Shown piece after piece: positions 2,230-62,680 of a stretch of 64,000 nucleotides of DNA. Source of the stretch: Mycobacterium barrassiae (GTDB taxonomy: Bacteria > Actinomycetota > Actinomycetes > Mycobacteriales > Mycobacteriaceae); contig NZ_JACKUK010000034.1 in NCBI RefSeq assembly GCF_025822765.1, positions 62,001-126,000 of the forward strand, written 5' to 3'. The first letter of the stretch is position 1; every line of letters starts with the position of its first letter. Below the pieces are notes generated by a model. It was given only the letters and a program-made list of their open reading frames with translations. It searched no databases and was not told where the DNA came from. Made by a program: the position numbers and the translations under genes.

Positions 2230-2742
2230 CTAGAAATCGCCGGCGTTGCGGCGCAGCGTCTCGATGGACTGGGCGAGCGCTTTGGACTCGCGCTCGGACA
2301 TCCCGATATCGGCGAACACCTCGTTGTTGAGGGTGACGGTGGCATCCTCGACCGTCGACCGACCGAGTTCGGTGATCCGCACCAGGGTGGTGCGCCCGTC
2401 CGTCGGATGCGGGATGCGCTCCACCAGGCCGTCGGCTTCGAGCCGCCGGATGGCGTGCGTGACGCTGGTGACGTGGACCTGAAGGCGGTCGGACGCCTTG
2501 GTGATCGGCAGCGCCCCGTCCCGGGTGAACGCCAACAACCGCAGCAATTCGAACCGGGAAAAGCTGAGGTCATACGGCCGCAGCGCGTTCTCGACGCGGG
2601 CCAGCAGAATCTGGTGCGCCCGCATCACCGAGGTGACCGCGACCATGCCGTCGGCTACGTCACCCCACCCGAAGCGCTCCCAATTTTCGCGCGCCAACGC
2701 GATGGGATCGCGCTTGCGCGGCCACGATGGTTGCGAGGGCAC
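2230..2742 (-). CDS. MarR-family transcriptional regulator (Rv0737-like)
   Basis: The 170-residue protein carries a MarR winged helix: LSFSRFELLRLLAFT, then ITKASDRLQVHVTSVTHAIRR (recognition helix) and the wing RIPHPTDGRTTLVRITELGR. In M. tuberculosis the gene after sigL-rslA is a regulator of this kind (Rv0737), so this is probably its orthologue, separated from rslA here by a four-gene insertion. It lies 45 bp downstream of the aminotransferase in the same direction and could be read from the same transcript. The MarR family usually responds to small aromatic or lipophilic ligands; the ligand here is not known. Confidence 0.85.
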   Translation of the reverse strand: MPSQPSWPRKRDPIALARENWERFGWGDVADGMVAVTSVMRAHQILLARVENALRPYDLSFSRFELLRLLAFTRDGALPITKASDRLQVHVTSVTHAIRRLEADGLVERIPHPTDGRTTLVRITELGRSTVEDATVTLNNEVFADIGMSERESKALAQSIETLRRNAGDF

Positions 2743-2787: not shown

Positions 2788-3822
2788 TCAGAGCGCGGCG
2801 GCCACCGCGTTCAGCACCGCACGCGTCGACTGTCGGTTGCCGACCGTGATCCGCACTCCCCCGTCGGCGTAGCCGCGGACCTGCAATTCGGTGCCTTCGA
2901 ACGCCTCCCGCCACTGCCGGCCCCACGACGGCAGGTAGACGAAATTGGCGTGCGCGTCGGTGCTGTACACCCCCATCGCCCGCAATCGCATGCGCAGGTA
3001 GCGCCGTTCGGCGGTGACCATCCGGATCCGTTGCTGCAGCTCACTTTCCGCGTCATAGGATGCGGCGACCGCCACCAAGCCGGTGATGGCGATACCGAAC
3101 GGCAGCTGCATGGTCCACATCTTGCGGGCCAGCTCGGGGGCACAGAAGCCGTAGCCGACGCGCAGCCCGGCCAACCCGTAGGCCTTCGAGAAGGTCCGCA
3201 CCGCCACGACATTCGGATACCGCTCGATCAACGCAGGGGTGTCGATGCGGTGATGGGGCGAGAGGAACTCCACGTACGCCTCGTCGAGCAGCACCACGGT
3301 GTCCGACGGGACACGATCGAGGAAGCGCTCGATGTCGGCCGAGGACTCGACGGTGCCCGTGGGGTTGTGCGGCCGGCACACCACCACGACCCTGGCGTTC
3401 GCGGCGGCGTCGGCCATGGCGTCAAGGTCGTGGTGTCCGTGCCGATCGAGCGGGACGGTGACCGACTCCAACCGGGCCATCTGGGCGAAGATCGGATAGC
3501 CGTCGAACGTCGGTGAGGTCATCACGATCCTGTCGCCAGGGTTCGTGAGGGCGCTCAGCATCTGCATGATGACGCCCGTGGCGCCGACGCCGATGACGAC
3601 CTGTTCGTCGCGCACCCCGATATGGTCGGCGATCAGTGCGCGAAGCCGCTCGGGCAGGAACTCGGGATACCGGTTGCCTGCATCGATCGCGGAGATGAGC
3701 GCGGACCTCACAGTCGGCAACGGCGCGAACGGATTCTCGTTGAGCGACAGGGCCATTGAGTTCACCGCGCTGGGTAGCGCGCCGACCGCGGCATCCGTGA
3801 CGGCGCGGTTCGGGCTGGCCAT
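2788..3822 (-). CDS. PLP-dependent aminotransferase, HisC/Pat-like
   Basis: A class I/II fold aminotransferase of 344 residues. Visible motifs: PHNPTG (Asn153), LLDEAY (Asp180), and the PLP Schiff-base Lys213 in TFSKAYGLAGLRVGY. Closest family character is histidinol-phosphate/aromatic aminotransferases. Its ATG (3822-3820) shares one base with the stop of the KAS III-like gene (TGATG), so the two are translationally coupled and it is the last catalytic gene of the SigL-type operon. It is unlikely to be the housekeeping HisC given this setting; it more likely aminates a ketone or keto acid made by the upstream enzymes. Its substrate is not known. Confidence 0.85.
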   Translation of the reverse strand: MASPNRAVTDAAVGALPSAVNSMALSLNENPFAPLPTVRSALISAIDAGNRYPEFLPERLRALIADHIGVRDEQVVIGVGATGVIMQMLSALTNPGDRIVMTSPTFDGYPIFAQMARLESVTVPLDRHGHHDLDAMADAAANARVVVVCRPHNPTGTVESSADIERFLDRVPSDTVVLLDEAYVEFLSPHHRIDTPALIERYPNVVAVRTFSKAYGLAGLRVGYGFCAPELARKMWTMQLPFGIAITGLVAVAASYDAESELQQRIRMVTAERRYLRMRLRAMGVYSTDAHANFVYLPSWGRQWREAFEGTELQVRGYADGGVRITVGNRQSTRAVLNAVAAAL

Positions 3823-4832
3823 CAGCCCCGACCTCCCCACCGCACGGCGGCAGCCCCGGCGAAGTCGCCGGCGTGGGCGAAGGCCGACATCATCACGACG
3901 TCGCCCTTCTTCAGCTGGCCGTCGGTGATGGCGCGGTCGAGGTTGACGGGTATCCCCGCGGCGAACATGTTCCCGCACTCGTCGAACGTGTCGCGGTGAC
4001 GTTCCTTCGGCAGCTCCAGCGCCTCGCGCCAGTTCCGCAGGAACGCCCGGTTCGGCTGGTTGGTGACAAGCAGGTCGAGATCCCTTGGCTTGACCCCGAT
4101 CCGGTCGCAGACGGCGTACGACACCTCGGGCACCTGACGGTTGCCGCGGGCCAGCACCTTCGTGATCTTGCTTTCGGTGAACCCGATGGACGCCTCGCCT
4201 TCGCCGGGCTGCCACCACTTGCGCGGCGGATCGACCGCAATCGTCATATCGCCGGCGTACTGACCGTAGGTGCGGCATTCGATGTCGAGGATCGGTGACT
4301 CGTCGGACAGCGACACCAGACCCACCGCGGCACCGTCACCAGGGACCGCCGCCTGCGCCTTGCGCCGGACCGTCGGTTGATTGAACGCCTGCCCGGCCGC
4401 GTTCGAAGCGATCGCGATCAGCGCGGTGCGCCCTTCGCCCGACTCGATCAGGGTGCGTGCCACCTTCAGGCCGAGCACAAACGCCGCACATCCTCCGTTG
4501 TGCAGATCGAGCACCCAATTCGGTTTCATGCCAAGGCGATGCGCCGTTCCGCCGCCGCCACCGTAAAACGGGACATCCGGCATCTGGGTGTGCGTGATGA
4601 GGATGTCGGCACCCGCGATCACATCGTGGCCATGGCGTTCGATCAGTCCGGCCGCGGCGCGCTCGACCATGTCGATGGCGGTCTCGTCCTCGGCGACGTG
4701 GTGGCGGAACTTCGGCGCACGGAACATCAGGTTGTCCCGTAGGTCGTCGGATTCGGCGAACTGCGCGTAGTAGTCCGCGCTGATCGGCTCTCCGGGTAGG
4801 TATGTCGAAACATCGATCAGGCTGACGGTCAT
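3822..4832 (-). CDS. 3-oxoacyl-ACP synthase III-like protein with altered catalytic triad
   Basis: The 336-residue protein follows the FabH/KAS III thiolase-fold layout: nucleophile Cys115 in LHNGGCAAFVLG and Asn288 in DECGNMFAAG. The stretch that normally holds the catalytic His (PHQAN in FabH) reads TNQPN, so Asn258 stands where His is expected. In KAS III enzymes that His helps decarboxylate malonyl-ACP; its absence suggests an acyltransferase or a different condensation rather than classical chain initiation. CerJ-type KAS III-like acyltransferases are a known precedent for a non-condensing role. The gene is 7 bp downstream of the SRPBCC gene and coupled to the aminotransferase. Confidence 0.8.
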   Translation of the reverse strand: MTVSLIDVSTYLPGEPISADYYAQFAESDDLRDNLMFRAPKFRHHVAEDETAIDMVERAAAGLIERHGHDVIAGADILITHTQMPDVPFYGGGGGTAHRLGMKPNWVLDLHNGGCAAFVLGLKVARTLIESGEGRTALIAIASNAAGQAFNQPTVRRKAQAAVPGDGAAVGLVSLSDESPILDIECRTYGQYAGDMTIAVDPPRKWWQPGEGEASIGFTESKITKVLARGNRQVPEVSYAVCDRIGVKPRDLDLLVTNQPNRAFLRNWREALELPKERHRDTFDECGNMFAAGIPVNLDRAITDGQLKKGDVVMMSAFAHAGDFAGAAAVRWGGRG

Positions 4833-4839
4833 AGCGTCC

Positions 4840-5511
4840 TCACTTCATCCAGTCCGGGGTGATGGAAAGCCCGTTGCGGTGGCGGTATTCGGCGATTGCC
4901 TTGAGGTTCTTCAGCTCCAGCAGGTGGCCGGGGCCGAACATGTCCCAGAAGTCTCCGACCCAGACCGGTCGCTGCGGCGGCGCAGTCTCGGGGTAGGGGT
5001 TGTTGTCGTAGAAGGGGTGGTGGCAGTTGGTCCACAGCACCACCGAACCGGGCTTGTCGAACACCAGCTGGGCGTCGACGATGCGCATCAGGTAGATCAT
5101 CCACAGGTGCTTGCCCTGATCCCACGCGCAGTGGTAGTCGACCGTGCGGGCCTCTTTGTTCGCCACGGTACGGGTGAATATCGGGCTGCCGGTCTCGCCG
5201 CCGAGTTTGTCGTACGCGACCCACAGGCCGGGCTCCTCGGTGGGCTCGAAACCGCGGAGGCTGTAGGTCCACTCCTCGAGACAGCGAGTGTCGGCCATGT
5301 AGTCGAACAGCTCGTCGGGCGGGCAGTCGACGTAATCGTTGACGGTGCAATAGGTTCCGAACACCTCATCATGCGGATACACCGAGCGCATCATCTCCAT
5401 GATGATCGGCGTCGCCTTCTCTCTCGGCGACGTCTCGACGCGGATCACCCCGTCGATCGGATCGGCGGTTCCCCGGTGGACGGTGATGTCCTCAAGTGCG
5501 GGCAGCGACAT
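4840..5511 (-). CDS. SRPBCC/START-domain protein (polyketide cyclase-like)
   Basis: The 223-residue protein shows the helix-grip pattern of SRPBCC proteins: VNDYVDCPPDELFDYMADTR followed by EEWTYSLRG and beta-rich stretches, ending in a long C-terminal helix. Such domains bind hydrophobic ligands and include aromatase/cyclases and hydratases. The start is set by AAGGAG seven bases before the ATG at 5511; a longer frame to 5553 lacks this support. Its first 20 bases overlap the end of the TPP-enzyme gene. It probably acts on, or carries, the intermediate passed between the TPP enzyme and the KAS III-like protein; that role is inference from the operon. Confidence 0.75.
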   Translation of the reverse strand: MSLPALEDITVHRGTADPIDGVIRVETSPREKATPIIMEMMRSVYPHDEVFGTYCTVNDYVDCPPDELFDYMADTRCLEEWTYSLRGFEPTEEPGLWVAYDKLGGETGSPIFTRTVANKEARTVDYHCAWDQGKHLWMIYLMRIVDAQLVFDKPGSVVLWTNCHHPFYDNNPYPETAPPQRPVWVGDFWDMFGPGHLLELKNLKAIAEYRHRNGLSITPDWMK

Positions 5512-7222
5512 TGACGTGCTCCTTCGTTGTGGTGCGCGGTTGACTGACTGCATCGGCAGAGTTGCCGAGAAACGCTGCGAACGGGGGGATCTCGTCGGCG
5601 GAGCACTCGATGCTGATGACCGAGGGGCCGTCCACGTCGAGTGCTGTCGCGAGAGCGTCGGGCAGCTCGTCGAGGTCGGTGACGTTGATCGACCTCAGGC
5701 CCGGGAACATCGCGGCCAGCCCGGCGCCGAGCCGGCTGGGCCCGAACCGGTTGTAGCTGTAGTGGTCGCCGTAGAACACCTGCTCACGCGTCACGCACAT
5801 CGCATGTGCGTGGTTGTCGAACAGCAGGAAGGTGACCGGGAGCCGGTACTGCACCGCCGTATGAATCTCCATACCGTGCATGAAGAACGAGCCGTCTCCG
5901 GCGATGACGACAGTCCGGCCGCCGGTGTCCGCGGCACGGCCGAACGCCATACCGATACCGGCGCCGAAGCTGTATCCCATCCCGCCCATGCCCAGTGCGA
6001 CGACGAAGCGGCCGCCTCGGCGCACGGGAAGATGATGTATTGCCGAGGCGCCGATGTTGCCGGCGTCGACGACGACGTCGACGGCATCGGGCAGCATCCG
6101 GTCGAGCACCGTCAGCGCATCGCGGTAACGAACGCCCGGCCCGTCGTGGGCGGGCGGGCGCAGCTCGGAACGCCGCATCGAATCGGGCACGCGTATGCGG
6201 GCCGGGCGGCCATGCCCCGACAGCGCCGCGGTCAGCGACGCCAGCGATCCGCGCAGATCGTCGGTGTGCACATGCGTGCACGGCAGATACGGTGTCTCGC
6301 CGCCGATGGAATAGACCTGTGTCGAGCGGAGCGCGTCGTCCAGTCCTGCGCGCGCCGTCACCGACAGCCTGGTGCCGACGACGAGGCACAGCGCGCTCTC
6401 GGCGATGGCCTCCGCGACTCCCGGGTGGCCCATCACGCCGGTCACTCCGAGCGCGGACGACGACCCCATCCCCGGTGTGCCCGCGGCGTCTTTCGCGTCG
6501 GGAACGCATGCCACGCGTGCCCGTAACAGCGACCGCAGCCGCTCGAGCTCCGCGCGGGCGTCGTCACGGACCACTTGTTCACCGGCGATGATCGTCACGG
6601 GTCCGTCGATGCGGCGCAGCGCACGCGCGATCGGATGCGGATTGCCGGTGTACCGGTTCTGATGGTTGATCGCCAAGGCAGAGCCGTTCACCGAGGTGAG
6701 GGTCGCCTGCTGAATATCCTTGGGCAGCAACAGGACCGCCGGTCCACCGGTGCGCGCCGCCGCGATCGCCTCCGGTAGCACCGTAAGGATGTCCTCGGGC
6801 GTCGTCACCCGCTTGCAGTACACCGACACCGCCGAGAACAGCGCGTGGGCGTCCAGCGCTCCGTTCAGTCCACTGGTGTCCTGAAACGCGCCCCGCCCGT
6901 CCAGGGACGTCGGCGCCTGTCCGATGAGCGCCAGCACCGGAACCCGGCTCGCGAAGGCCTCACCGAGGCCGGGCACCGTGTTGAGGCATCCGCCGCCGGA
7001 CGTCGCGGCCACCACGCCGAGTCCAGATCCGCTGCGGCTGTAGCCGTCGGCCATTGTCGCGGCAGAGAACTCGTGCTTCGCCAGGACTGCGGTGATGTCC
7101 GCGCGGTAGTACGCCGCGTCGTAAAGGTCTTCGATGTTGGCGCCGTCGACGCCGAATATGTAATCGACGCCGATCCCCGCGAGAGTGCCGACGATGTGGT
7201 CGACTACCCGATGCCTGCCCAT
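5492..7222 (-). CDS. Thiamine pyrophosphate-dependent enzyme, acetolactate synthase-like
   Basis: The 576-residue protein has the three-domain layout of the POX/acetolactate synthase group: N-terminal PYR domain with the cofactor-activating Glu51 (LAKHEFSAAT), a central domain, and a C-terminal PP domain with the TPP/metal motif (GDGSFF ... FDNHAHAM). These enzymes decarboxylate 2-keto acids and ligate the resulting acyl anion to an acceptor carbonyl. It differs from housekeeping IlvB by its length and by the absence of an ilvN partner. It is first in the operon, 48 bp after rslA, and its ATG lies six bases after a perfect SigL-type -10, implying a leaderless mRNA. Substrates are unknown. Confidence 0.85.
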   Translation of the reverse strand: MGRHRVVDHIVGTLAGIGVDYIFGVDGANIEDLYDAAYYRADITAVLAKHEFSAATMADGYSRSGSGLGVVAATSGGGCLNTVPGLGEAFASRVPVLALIGQAPTSLDGRGAFQDTSGLNGALDAHALFSAVSVYCKRVTTPEDILTVLPEAIAAARTGGPAVLLLPKDIQQATLTSVNGSALAINHQNRYTGNPHPIARALRRIDGPVTIIAGEQVVRDDARAELERLRSLLRARVACVPDAKDAAGTPGMGSSSALGVTGVMGHPGVAEAIAESALCLVVGTRLSVTARAGLDDALRSTQVYSIGGETPYLPCTHVHTDDLRGSLASLTAALSGHGRPARIRVPDSMRRSELRPPAHDGPGVRYRDALTVLDRMLPDAVDVVVDAGNIGASAIHHLPVRRGGRFVVALGMGGMGYSFGAGIGMAFGRAADTGGRTVVIAGDGSFFMHGMEIHTAVQYRLPVTFLLFDNHAHAMCVTREQVFYGDHYSYNRFGPSRLGAGLAAMFPGLRSINVTDLDELPDALATALDVDGPSVISIECSADEIPPFAAFLGNSADAVSQPRTTTKEHVNVAART

Positions 7223-7228
7223 ATACAG

Positions 7229-7256
7229 GACACGATTGGCTAGCCGATTCGGTTCA
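7229..7256 (-). promoter_or_regulatory. Consensus SigL promoter of the four-gene operon
   Basis: On the minus strand TGAACC (7256-7251) is followed after exactly 16 bases by CGTGTC (7234-7229). This matches fully the M. tuberculosis SigL consensus as I recall it (TGAACC, 16-17 bases, CGTGTC). The -10 ends six bases before the ATG at 7222, so transcription should begin at or next to the start codon. Confidence 0.85.
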
Positions 7257-7270
7257 TTCGGTGTCTGGAA

Positions 7271-7996
7271 TCACAGCTTCTTTTCCAACAGTACCTGTCC
7301 GGAATCGGGCGAAACCAGTTGCACTGCAGCGATTTCATCCACCGGAAGAGGCGTGTTGGCGCTCGGCAACGCCGTCGCACCCGACAACCCGAGCCACGTC
7401 GCAATCTGACTCTGGCTTCCATCGCGTCCCACGACGACCATGCCGAGGTTCTGCGGCGGAGCGTCGCGTCGGCCCCAATCCCCGTAGGTGCATGCCATGT
7501 CGATGCGGGTGCCCCAGCCGTAACCGGTCATGCTGATGGTCGCGTTGATCGGCGTGTCCGACACCTTCGTCATTTCCATTGCCCCGGCGACAGGTTCCGA
7601 ACCCTGCTGCAGTCCGAAACTCTGTGGACGGATGGCGAACACCAAGGCGATGGCCACCACGGCGGCCGCGGCGGCGAGCGCGGCGGTGGTCATCCAGCGC
7701 GAGCGTCTGCGTCGTGACTGGACTCGGGTCAGCAACGAATCCAACATGTGAGGCGGCGGCTGCGATTGCTCACCGTCGATCGCCGCGACATCCGCGGTGT
7801 CGAGCGTGGCAAGCAGCGGCGGGATCTCACTCAGCTCCGCGACGGCGGCGCGGCAGCGCGGACATGTTGGCAGGTGTGCCTCGTATTCGCGGCGGTCCTC
7901 CGCGGTCAAGGAGCCGAGCACGTAGGCGGCGTCCCAGGTGGCAAAGCGGTCGTCGTCCAAATCCTCACCGCCTATGTGCAGCCCCAAGCGTGTCAT
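7271..7996 (-). CDS. rslA: Anti-sigma factor RslA
   Basis: The 241-residue protein has the zinc-binding anti-sigma motif His41-x3-Cys45-x2-Cys48 (HLPTCPRC), a single transmembrane helix at about 102-122 after a basic stretch (SRRRRSR), and an extracytoplasmic C-terminal domain. RslA sequesters SigL and releases it on oxidation/zinc loss in M. tuberculosis. The gene overlaps sigL by four bases (ATGA), the usual arrangement for an ECF sigma/anti-sigma pair. The last 110 residues face outside and may sense envelope conditions. Confidence 0.92.
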   Translation of the reverse strand: MTRLGLHIGGEDLDDDRFATWDAAYVLGSLTAEDRREYEAHLPTCPRCRAAVAELSEIPPLLATLDTADVAAIDGEQSQPPPHMLDSLLTRVQSRRRRSRWMTTAALAAAAAVVAIALVFAIRPQSFGLQQGSEPVAGAMEMTKVSDTPINATISMTGYGWGTRIDMACTYGDWGRRDAPPQNLGMVVVGRDGSQSQIATWLGLSGATALPSANTPLPVDEIAAVQLVSPDSGQVLLEKKL

Positions 7997-8517
7997 CGTG
8001 TCACCCCCATTTCCTGCAACGTGAGCCGCAAGGCCCGCATGCCGTAGTGCAGCCGCGACTTCACGGTGCCTTCGGCGATCTGCAGGTCGGCAGCGATCTG
8101 GGCGGTCGTGGCGCCCTGGTAGTACGCGCGGCTGATGACCGCGCGGTGGTCCTCGGACAGCTGGGCCATGGCCTCAGTGAGCAACATGCGGTCCAGCGCC
8201 GTCTCCACCTCGTCGGGCCCTGCGTGGTCCGCCGCCTGTTCCATGTCGGGAGTGCCGGTTTCGCTGCGGAACCTCGCGCTTCGTCGTTCGTCGATGACAA
8301 GGTTACGCGCCACGGTGAACAGCCACCCCCGCGCGGATCTCTCGGTGTCGTCGGTCACCTCGGGGTGACGCCACGCACGCAGAAGCGTCTCCTGCACGAC
8401 ATCCTCCGCCCGAGCTGTATCCCCGGTGAGCTTCATGGCATAGCGCCAAAGCGCTGCGGCGTGCTCTTGGTAGAGCACCCGCATGACCTGCCCTTCCGCG
8501 GTCGCCGGGTCGTCCAA
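7993..8517 (-). CDS. sigL: ECF RNA polymerase sigma factor SigL
   Basis: The 174-residue ECF sigma factor shows region 2 (EDVVQETLLRAWRH ... RGWLFTVARNLVIDERR) and region 4 (SEDHRAVISRAYYQGATTAQIAADL ... GTVKSRLHYGMRALR). The start is a TTG at 8517, supported by GGAGG seven bases upstream; the next ATG lies 11 codons inside and would cut region 2. A SigL-type promoter at 8536-8563 just upstream indicates autoregulation. Position between map and rslA matches Rv0735. Confidence 0.93.
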   Translation of the reverse strand: MDDPATAEGQVMRVLYQEHAAALWRYAMKLTGDTARAEDVVQETLLRAWRHPEVTDDTERSARGWLFTVARNLVIDERRSARFRSETGTPDMEQAADHAGPDEVETALDRMLLTEAMAQLSEDHRAVISRAYYQGATTAQIAADLQIAEGTVKSRLHYGMRALRLTLQEMGVTR

Positions 8518-8535: not shown

Positions 8536-8563
8536 AATACGAGGTTGCCGGTCATCCGGTTCA
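8536..8563 (-). promoter_or_regulatory. SigL autoregulatory promoter
   Basis: TGAACC (8563-8558), 16-base spacer, CGTATT (8541-8536) on the minus strand. The -35 is identical to that of the downstream operon promoter; the -10 keeps the CGT core. The start site would fall near 8529, giving a leader of about 12 bases that contains the GGAGG ribosome-binding site. Confidence 0.8.
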
Positions 8564-61729: not shown

Positions 61730-62680
61730 ATGACGACTTCAGATCTCGCCGCGTCCGCGGCGCCGGTATCCGATGTCGCCGCACTGAGGCGCCCCGGCGC
61801 CGACAGAGCACCCGCGAGGCGCCCCGGCGCCGACAGAGCACCCGCGAGGCGCCCCGGCGCCGACAGAGCACCCGCGAGGCGCACTCCCCGCCCCCGCCAC
61901 TACGCAATGACGGCGCCGACGTTCTTTGCCGTCGAGTATGCGATCAACCCGTGGATGGACACCTCGGTGTCCGTGGACACCCATGTCGCGCTCAGCCAGT
62001 GGGAACGACTGCGTCAGACGTACAAGGAACTCGGCCACACCGTCGAGTTGGTCGAGCCGGTCGCCGGGCTGCCCGATATGGTCTACGCCGCCAACGGCGG
62101 CCTCATCGTCAACGGCGCGGCCGTCGTCGCACGGTTCGCCTATCCGCAGCGCGCAGGCGAATCGGCGGCTTATGCCGAGTGGATGAGCCGGCACGGCTAT
62201 GACGTCGCCGAAACCCGGCATATCAACGAAGGCCAGGGCGACCTGCTGGTCGTCGGCTCGATCATCCTGGCGGGATACGGTTTTCGTACGGAACGAGAAG
62301 CGCACGACGAGATCGCCGCCACCGTCAAGATGCCCGTCGTCAGCCTCGAGCTCGTCGATCCGCGGTTCTACCACCTCGACACCGCACTCGCCGTGCTCGA
62401 CGACACCACGATCGCGTTCTACCCGCCCGCATTCAGCGAGAAGTCCCGAGCGACCCTGCTCGAGCTGTTCCCCGACGCCATCGAGGTGGGCAGCGCCGAT
62501 GCATACGTACTCGGCCTCAACGCCGTATCCGACGGCCTCAACGTCGTTTTACCTGCCGCCGCAACCGGTTTCGCCGAACAACTCAGGAATGCCGGGTTCC
62601 GACCCGTCGGCGTCGATCTCTCCGAACTGCTGAAGGGCGGCGGATCCGTCAAGTGCTGCACATTGGAGGTACATCCGTGA
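61730..62680 (+). CDS. ddaH: Dimethylargininase / arginine deiminase-family hydrolase
   Basis: The 316-residue protein has the amidinotransferase fold: FFAVEYAINPWMD, LPDMVYAANGG, EGQGDLL, RFYHLDTALAVLD with the catalytic His, and catalytic Cys near the end in GGGSVKCCTLE. It converts methylated arginine (or arginine) to citrulline. Residues about 19-52 are a tandem repeat (RRPGADRAPA three times) not found in the family. It overlaps rocD by four bases. No ribosome-binding site precedes the ATG; a leaderless mRNA is likely. Rv2323c is the M. tuberculosis homologue, so this locus is elsewhere there. Confidence 0.87.
   Translation: MTTSDLAASAAPVSDVAALRRPGADRAPARRPGADRAPARRPGADRAPARRTPRPRHYAMTAPTFFAVEYAINPWMDTSVSVDTHVALSQWERLRQTYKELGHTVELVEPVAGLPDMVYAANGGLIVNGAAVVARFAYPQRAGESAAYAEWMSRHGYDVAETRHINEGQGDLLVVGSIILAGYGFRTEREAHDEIAATVKMPVVSLELVDPRFYHLDTALAVLDDTTIAFYPPAFSEKSRATLLELFPDAIEVGSADAYVLGLNAVSDGLNVVLPAAATGFAEQLRNAGFRPVGVDLSELLKGGGSVKCCTLEVHP
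61786..61882 (+). repeat. Three in-frame 30-bp tandem repeats inside ddaH
   Basis: The unit GAGGCGCCCCGGCGCCGACA plus GAGCACCCGC (30 bp) occurs three times exactly at 61786-61815, 61816-61845 and 61846-61875, then begins again to 61882. The unit contains the palindrome GGCGCCCCGGCGCC. As 30 is a multiple of three, copy change keeps the frame and alters the protein by ten residues. Confidence 0.95.

Follow-up and report, generated by a model that had tools for sequence, protein, structure and literature searches.

A four-enzyme mycobacterial operon behind a conserved SigL-type promoter and its predicted relation to carbazole biosynthesis

Introduction

What do the four enzyme genes directly behind the sigL-rslA pair of Mycobacterium barrassiae make, and are they switched on by SigL? 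The genes lie in the window analysed here, the 64,000 nucleotides at positions 62,001 to 126,000 of contig NZ_JACKUK010000034.1, and all positions given below without a contig or locus name refer to that window. In M. tuberculosis, work on SigL has dealt with a scatter of single targets. Cell-wall and polyketide genes are regulated by SigL (PMC2877774). The window carries the same sigma/anti-sigma pair. To our knowledge, the four-gene set is not among the SigL targets of M. tuberculosis. We propose that an oxidant-triggered and SigL-driven cascade, similar to that of carquinostatin (Cqs) biosynthesis, leads from this operon to an alkylated aromatic compound, probably a carbazole catechol or quinone, and we regard this proposal as moderately probable.

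Results

The stretch between rslA and the downstream marR gene is filled by four minus-strand genes according to open frames and Pfam matches. They encode a thiamine diphosphate (ThDP) enzyme (5492..7222; PF02775, PF02776, and PF00205), CqsB3/NzsH-like by position and homology; a cyclase of the SRPBCC/Bet v1 type related to the carbazole synthase CqsB2 (4840..5511); a condensing enzyme resembling ketoacyl-acyl carrier protein synthase III (KASIII; 3822..4832; PF08541 and PF08545), hereafter KAS; and a pyridoxal phosphate-dependent class I/II aminotransferase (2788..3822; PF00155) with Lys213, which likely acts on aromatic substrates. The ThDP enzyme and cyclase genes overlap by 20 bases, the cyclase and KAS genes are separated by 7 bases, and the KAS and aminotransferase genes overlap by 1 base, spacings that fit a single operon. 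From the end of rslA at 7271 to the start of the ThDP enzyme gene at 7222 there is a gap of 48 bases, inside which the box TGAACC-N16-CGTGTC lies at 7256-7229 on the minus strand. The preliminary description of this DNA had pointed to the close packing of the genes, the 48-bp gap and the full box, and the coordinates agree on all three.

The box is the sole match to its pattern in the 64-kb window, against a chance expectation of 0.05 (100 dinucleotide shuffles, five of which had one match). The pattern TGAACC-N16-CGTRTC occurs three times in the 5.9-Mb assembly, and the reversed control pattern once. Since the −10 hexamer ends 6 bases ahead of the ATG at 7222, the mRNA is likely to be leaderless, as far as can be read from the sequence. 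As for the other two sites in the assembly (204653-204680 on contig C25 and 339256-339283 on contig C29 of genome G000), one lies where the frame of a Ser/Thr kinase with Kelch repeats starts, beside an FHA-domain gene, and the remaining one marks the beginning of a frame which we take to resemble an IclR-type regulator.

Conservation was examined in the best 80 of 491 public-genome matches of the cyclase, a set hence biased to close copies, in which sigL lies upstream on the same strand at 60 loci (linked loci). Using the pattern TGAACN-N16-CGTNTN within 150 bases of a gene start, with the spacer fixed at 16, we found the box ahead of the ThDP enzyme gene in 58 of 59 linked loci, 44 of them exact; locus L031, in which the match to this gene is split, is left out of the count, and L076 is the single linked locus without a box. 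Upstream of the other genes, the box was found at 1 of 60 cyclase, 0 of 58 KAS, 0 of 55 aminotransferase, 0 of 58 marR, and 0 of 56 rslA starts, and mononucleotide shuffles of the regions upstream of the ThDP enzyme gene gave 0.03 boxes on average. When spacers of 15-17 were permitted, all listed boxes ahead of this gene had 16. The conservation of the box is thus well supported, and it is a SigL-type one in its −35 and −10 elements and its 16-base spacer, the consensus being taken from the preliminary description and from the SigL literature, in which this box type is familiar. A promoter arising by chance was also considered and was rejected on the shuffle counts and on the conservation ahead of the ThDP enzyme gene as opposed to the later genes. 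A box is also present ahead of sigL in 54 of 59 linked loci, and likewise in the window (TGAACC-N16-CGTAT, 8537..8563, minus strand), which points to self-activation of sigL. In two loci from another genus of the family, L112 and L113, the box precedes the ThDP enzyme gene, and L112 also has sigL-rslA.

The order sigL-rslA-ThDP enzyme-cyclase-KAS-aminotransferase-marR is exactly kept in 56 of the 60 linked loci, and among the searched genes KAS directly follows the cyclase in 58. The preliminary description had leaned on the four enzyme families belonging together, and in other genomes they do co-occur, all four being present in 59 of 60 linked loci. In an evenly drawn sample of 297 genomes of the genus, 203 had a match to the cyclase, a count that takes in weak (E up to 1.6e-5) and decayed copies, and 252 had a match to SigL (E<=1e-50). 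Linkage was scored on the listed places only (135 and 146 genomes, respectively), both genes being listed in 71 genomes; in 56 of these 71, they share a contig and a strand and are no more than 15 kb apart, at a spacing of about 2.5 kb in 45, about 8.2 kb in nine, and about 1 kb in two. Across the class, a cyclase match at E<=1e-15 was obtained for 27 of 394 genomes, representing 5 of 137 genera, and the named best matches of the window cyclase are mycobacterial among the best 80 of 491. The gene calls in the fetched loci were made by a simple script, and their starts are doubtful. SigL control, as the preliminary description had it, is supported by the conserved box together with this linkage, and we infer that transcription of the operon depends on SigL.

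In carquinostatin biosynthesis, the skeleton is built in the order aminotransferase (tryptophan to indole-3-pyruvate), ThDP enzyme (addition of pyruvate), KASIII-like enzyme (addition of 3-hydroxybutyryl-acyl carrier protein), and CqsB2, whose residues Glu105, Tyr144, Tyr172, His206, and Glu209 are proposed to be catalytic in ring closure on the indole (PMC7466098). At E<=1, the window cyclase has a single PDB sequence match, CqsB2 (6ipv; E 3.6e-45; 39-45% identity), and searches of Pfam and NCBIfam gave none at E<=0.001. The five CqsB2 residues align with Asp101, Tyr140, Tyr168, His196, and Glu199 of the window cyclase, four being identical and Glu replaced by Asp once, and the four identical residues are kept in 15 of 15 aligned sequences. 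A fold search with an AlphaFold model, which is itself weak with a pLDDT (predicted local distance difference test) score of 63.7, also placed 6ipv first (E 1.8e-13), and the next matches, at about 1e-3, were other helix-grip proteins including aromatase/cyclases. A biosynthetic operon with a possible cyclase, as proposed in the preliminary description, is supported.

The nature of the ring on which this cyclase would act is less settled, because the same cascade could start from phenylpyruvate or 4-hydroxyphenylpyruvate and give a naphthalene-type or other non-indole aromatic compound instead of a carbazole. The replacement of CqsB2 Glu105 by Asp and the identity of only 39-45% are consistent with such a start, as is the top PDB match of the aminotransferase, a putative phenylalanine aminotransferase (4r2n, E 1.8e-57). 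The invariance of Tyr140, Tyr168, His196, and Glu199 argues for an indole, as their CqsB2 equivalents are those proposed for ring closure on that ring (PMC7466098), and a benzene ring is by general chemistry the poorer nucleophile. We thus regard a non-indole start as rather unlikely and retain an indole-derived carbazole as the probable product.

The KAS model (pLDDT 76.0) has the KASIII fold according to the fold search. In alignments with three FabH proteins, Cys115 and Asn288 are present, and Asn258 stands at the position of the His in the KASIII HQAN motif. Among 118 aligned KAS sequences, a set that contains the window enzyme itself as well as places fetched twice, Cys115 and Asn288 are present in all, and the His is replaced by Asn258 in 117, the exception being that of the Cqs-type locus L120. 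The window enzyme thus departs from the Cys-His-Asn site on the Cqs side, which was judged from L120 rather than from the CqsB1 sequence itself. We know of no KASIII with a Cys-Asn-Asn site. The enzyme may accordingly act as a Cys-Asn-Asn acyl transferase that forms an ester or ketone without decarboxylative condensation, with the SRPBCC protein binding or rearranging the product, so that an acyloin ester or a pyrone-like lipid would result. Besides the loss of the His from all but one of the 118 sequences, the spontaneous conversion of the CqsB1 product to indole-containing esters (PMC7466098) would suit such a pathway, but the retained cyclase residues and the position of KAS directly behind the cyclase in 58 of 60 linked loci do not, and His320 and Asp323 close to the C-terminus, invariant in 25 of 25 sequences, could stand in for the lost His. 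An ester or pyrone pathway of this kind is in our view improbable, and condensation followed by cyclization remains the reading that we prefer.

The top PDB matches of the ThDP enzyme are BbmA and CsmA (8x3x and 8x3z), BbmA being the top PDB match of the L120 ThDP enzyme as well, and Glu51 is present in all 89 aligned sequences with a letter at that position, 26 gapped rows being left out. The top NCBIfam model of the aminotransferase is histidinol-phosphate transaminase, below cut-off. Housekeeping identities as acetolactate synthase, FabH, and HisC were tried and rejected, the closest other copies in the genome being 26% (ThDP enzyme), 28% over part of the length (KAS), and 38% (aminotransferase) identical.

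In the PigD/PigE system, a ThDP enzyme is combined with an aminotransferase that acts last, and no KASIII or SRPBCC cyclase is known to take part. The preliminary description had read an amino-ketone logic of this kind into the operon, which does contain both types of enzyme. This logic was rejected: the aminotransferase is of class I/II, the KASIII-like and CqsB2-like genes, for which PigD/PigE offer no known counterpart, are part of the set at 59 of the 60 linked loci, and the closest match is to the carbazole cascade (CqsB2 and BbmA/CsmA), in which the aminotransferase acts first (PMC7466098). Transamination as the last step of an amino-ketone pathway is thus highly improbable.

Discussion

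Considering these results, we propose the following scenario for the operon. In M. tuberculosis, oxidation of the HXXXCXXC motif of RslA releases zinc and weakens the binding of SigL (PMC2877774). The window RslA keeps this motif in its translation (HLPTCPRC), and the redox trigger suggested by the preliminary description is thus supported. Because the motif is kept and is redox-sensitive in M. tuberculosis, an oxidant may free SigL, switch on the operon, and lead to a redox-active aromatic compound. SigL, freed from oxidized RslA, would transcribe its own operon and, from TGAACC-N16-CGTGTC, that of the four enzymes. The aminotransferase would convert an aromatic amino acid, for which tryptophan is the likeliest candidate, to its 2-oxo acid, and the cascade would join this acid (likely indole-3-pyruvate) with pyruvate and an acyl chain to give an alkylated aromatic compound. 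The KASIII-like enzyme would carry the acyl chain on Cys115 and condense it with the acid, and the cyclase would close and aromatize the ring to an alkylated catechol or ortho-quinone, probably a carbazole. The product may be redox-active, possibly lipid-like, and made under oxidative or envelope stress.

Several findings weigh against this scenario. The sites of SigL resemble those of SigE and SigH, and of 15 known sigma-sigma links only 6 were recovered with published consensus sequences (PMC4821874), so that the box alone is no proof of SigL. Among the non-linked loci, 17 have a full start of the ThDP enzyme gene, and 15 of these lack the box, L048 and L071 being the exceptions; the cyclase and SigL genes are unlinked in 15 of 71 genomes. 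On the KAS tree, four changes each are needed for the linked and the non-linked label, the settings being clustered but mixed. The replacement of the catalytic His puts decarboxylative condensation by the Cys-His-Asn route in doubt, and identity to the L120 copies is only 27% for KAS and 34% for the ThDP enzyme. For the L120 ThDP enzyme, CsmA ranked under several acetolactate synthases, and the window ThDP enzyme itself has an acetolactate synthase model as its top NCBIfam match, far under cut-off. The aminotransferase, predicted to act on tryptophan, resembles phenylalanine and histidinol-phosphate aminotransferases. The stretch from rslA to marR holds four genes only, among which there is neither a dedicated acyl carrier protein nor a classical KASIII, and the AlphaFold model of the cyclase is a weak one.

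The operon, seemingly a remote relative of the Streptomyces apparatus for antioxidant carbazoles, has the same four enzyme types as the carquinostatin and neocarazostatin systems (CqsB7, CqsB3, CqsB1, and CqsB2; NzsH, NzsJ, and NzsI). The cyclase is homologous with conserved catalytic residues, and the ThDP and KASIII-like enzymes are homologous as compared through L120. It differs from these systems in lacking a dedicated acyl carrier protein, a classical KASIII, a prenyltransferase, and a P450 gene, in a KAS without the His, in a cyclase of 39-45% identity, and in its mycobacterial distribution behind a SigL-type box. We do not assign the operon to the Cqs family because of the missing His, acyl carrier protein, and classical KASIII, the low identity of KAS and the ThDP enzyme, and a product that is only predicted; it forms a separate branch that most probably works alike. 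Locus L120, a Cqs-type cluster with a KAS that has the His and a cyclase sharing 71% identity with the CqsB2 stretch, carries a berberine-bridge-type FAD oxidase gene between the ThDP enzyme and aminotransferase genes.

Tsukamurella is a near relative of the mycobacteria. Lipocarbazoles, antioxidant carbazoles with a 3-oxygenated skeleton, are made by Tsukamurella pseudospumae (PMC7466098 and its reference list). The accessible text of that carbazole review does not contain 'mycobacter', and among the literature matches listed, which leave out many subscription papers, there was no report of carbazole-type compounds or of such an operon in mycobacteria.

In the linked genomes, the most constant SigL-type box behind sigL-rslA stands in front of a predicted small-molecule pathway. 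If the scenario is correct, mycobacteria make carbazole-type redox compounds, and the purpose of SigL becomes directly testable. The loci also yield numerous natural cyclases of the CqsB2 type, together with a variant of KASIII that lacks the catalytic histidine. More tentatively, many mycobacteria may possess an unrecognized SigL-switched route, with a Cys-Asn-Asn KAS, to an alkylated carbazole catechol or quinone, a redox-active lipid that would be formed upon oxidation of RslA. The second copies outside the sigL setting, with their genes for fatty-acid activation, MmpL, and O-methyltransferases, may add a family of exported carbazole-type lipids to the mycobacterial envelope, and the tubercle bacillus may have lost the operon and kept the switch.

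The exact SigL of M. tuberculosis was found in 0 of 396 sampled genomes; the nearest SigL, 94% identical, is that of genome G029, in which the whole operon is present (L133). In M. tuberculosis, rv0737 directly follows sigL-rslA (PMC13002591). Because of this arrangement, loss of the operon in M. tuberculosis may be the simplest reading. Rv0737 and its M. smegmatis counterpart, which sits in a separate cluster, bind the sigL-rslA promoter (PMC13002591). In three genomes of 3.2-3.3 Mb from the same genus (G114, G075, and G088), the SRPBCC gene is present only as decayed pieces with stops or frame breaks, and G114 and G075 have no SigL match at E<=1e-50.

The extracytoplasmic function sigma factor gene sigL (7993..8517, minus strand) matches NF007227 (PRK09645) above cut-off and has M. 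tuberculosis SigL (6dv9, E 3.8e-74) as its top PDB match, and rslA (7271..7996, minus strand) encodes a zinc-finger anti-sigma factor (zf-HC2, PF13490). The MarR-family regulator gene (2230..2742, minus strand; PF12802 and PF01047), the counterpart of Rv0737 by position, occupies the downstream place at 58 of the 60 linked loci. It is adjoined on the plus strand by genes for a LuxR-type response regulator (290-952) and a GAF histidine kinase (949-2181), which together span 290-2181. The closest named relative of the window KAS in the tree is the KAS of Mycobacterium neglectum.

Neighbouring genes at the non-linked loci were grouped into single-linkage clusters, one member of each being scanned against Pfam. 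Near the core of the 17 loci without sigL, genes were found for fatty acyl-AMP ligase-type enzymes (8 of 17), MmpL proteins (9 of 17), O-methyltransferases of PF00891 (8 of 17) and PF01596 (6 of 17), and P450 enzymes (7 of 17), and an acyl carrier protein was called in three, L061, L070, and L077. At L050, L061, L070, L072, L074, L077, and L078, the ThDP enzyme, cyclase, and KAS genes are followed by those for a fatty acyl-AMP ligase-type enzyme, MmpL, and an O-methyltransferase. This second type of cluster looks like an exported lipid pathway, and its genes suggest that part of the non-linked branch involves acyl donors with long chains as well as export. Since these loci carry acyl-activation and export genes, the acyl chain in the SigL-linked branch may also be long.

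Loci L064 and L071 were scored as non-linked since the fetched stretch ends early (in L071, inside rslA), and L071 is labelled as linked in the KAS tree. In L134, a locus with the spacing of about 8.2 kb, the stretch from rslA to the ThDP enzyme gene (3537-5952) holds genes for an FAD monooxygenase (PF01494), a DUF4389 protein, and a UbiE-like methyltransferase, plus genes on the opposite strand, and counterparts of the first two were recognized by eye at 564-2356 of L071; these extra genes are possible tailoring genes. A further SigL-type box occurs in L071, at 14945 on the plus strand, within the called frame of a flavin monooxygenase (FMO)-like gene near its start, a few kb downstream of the operon, and FMO genes related to it occur in the non-linked clusters L048, L065, and L081.

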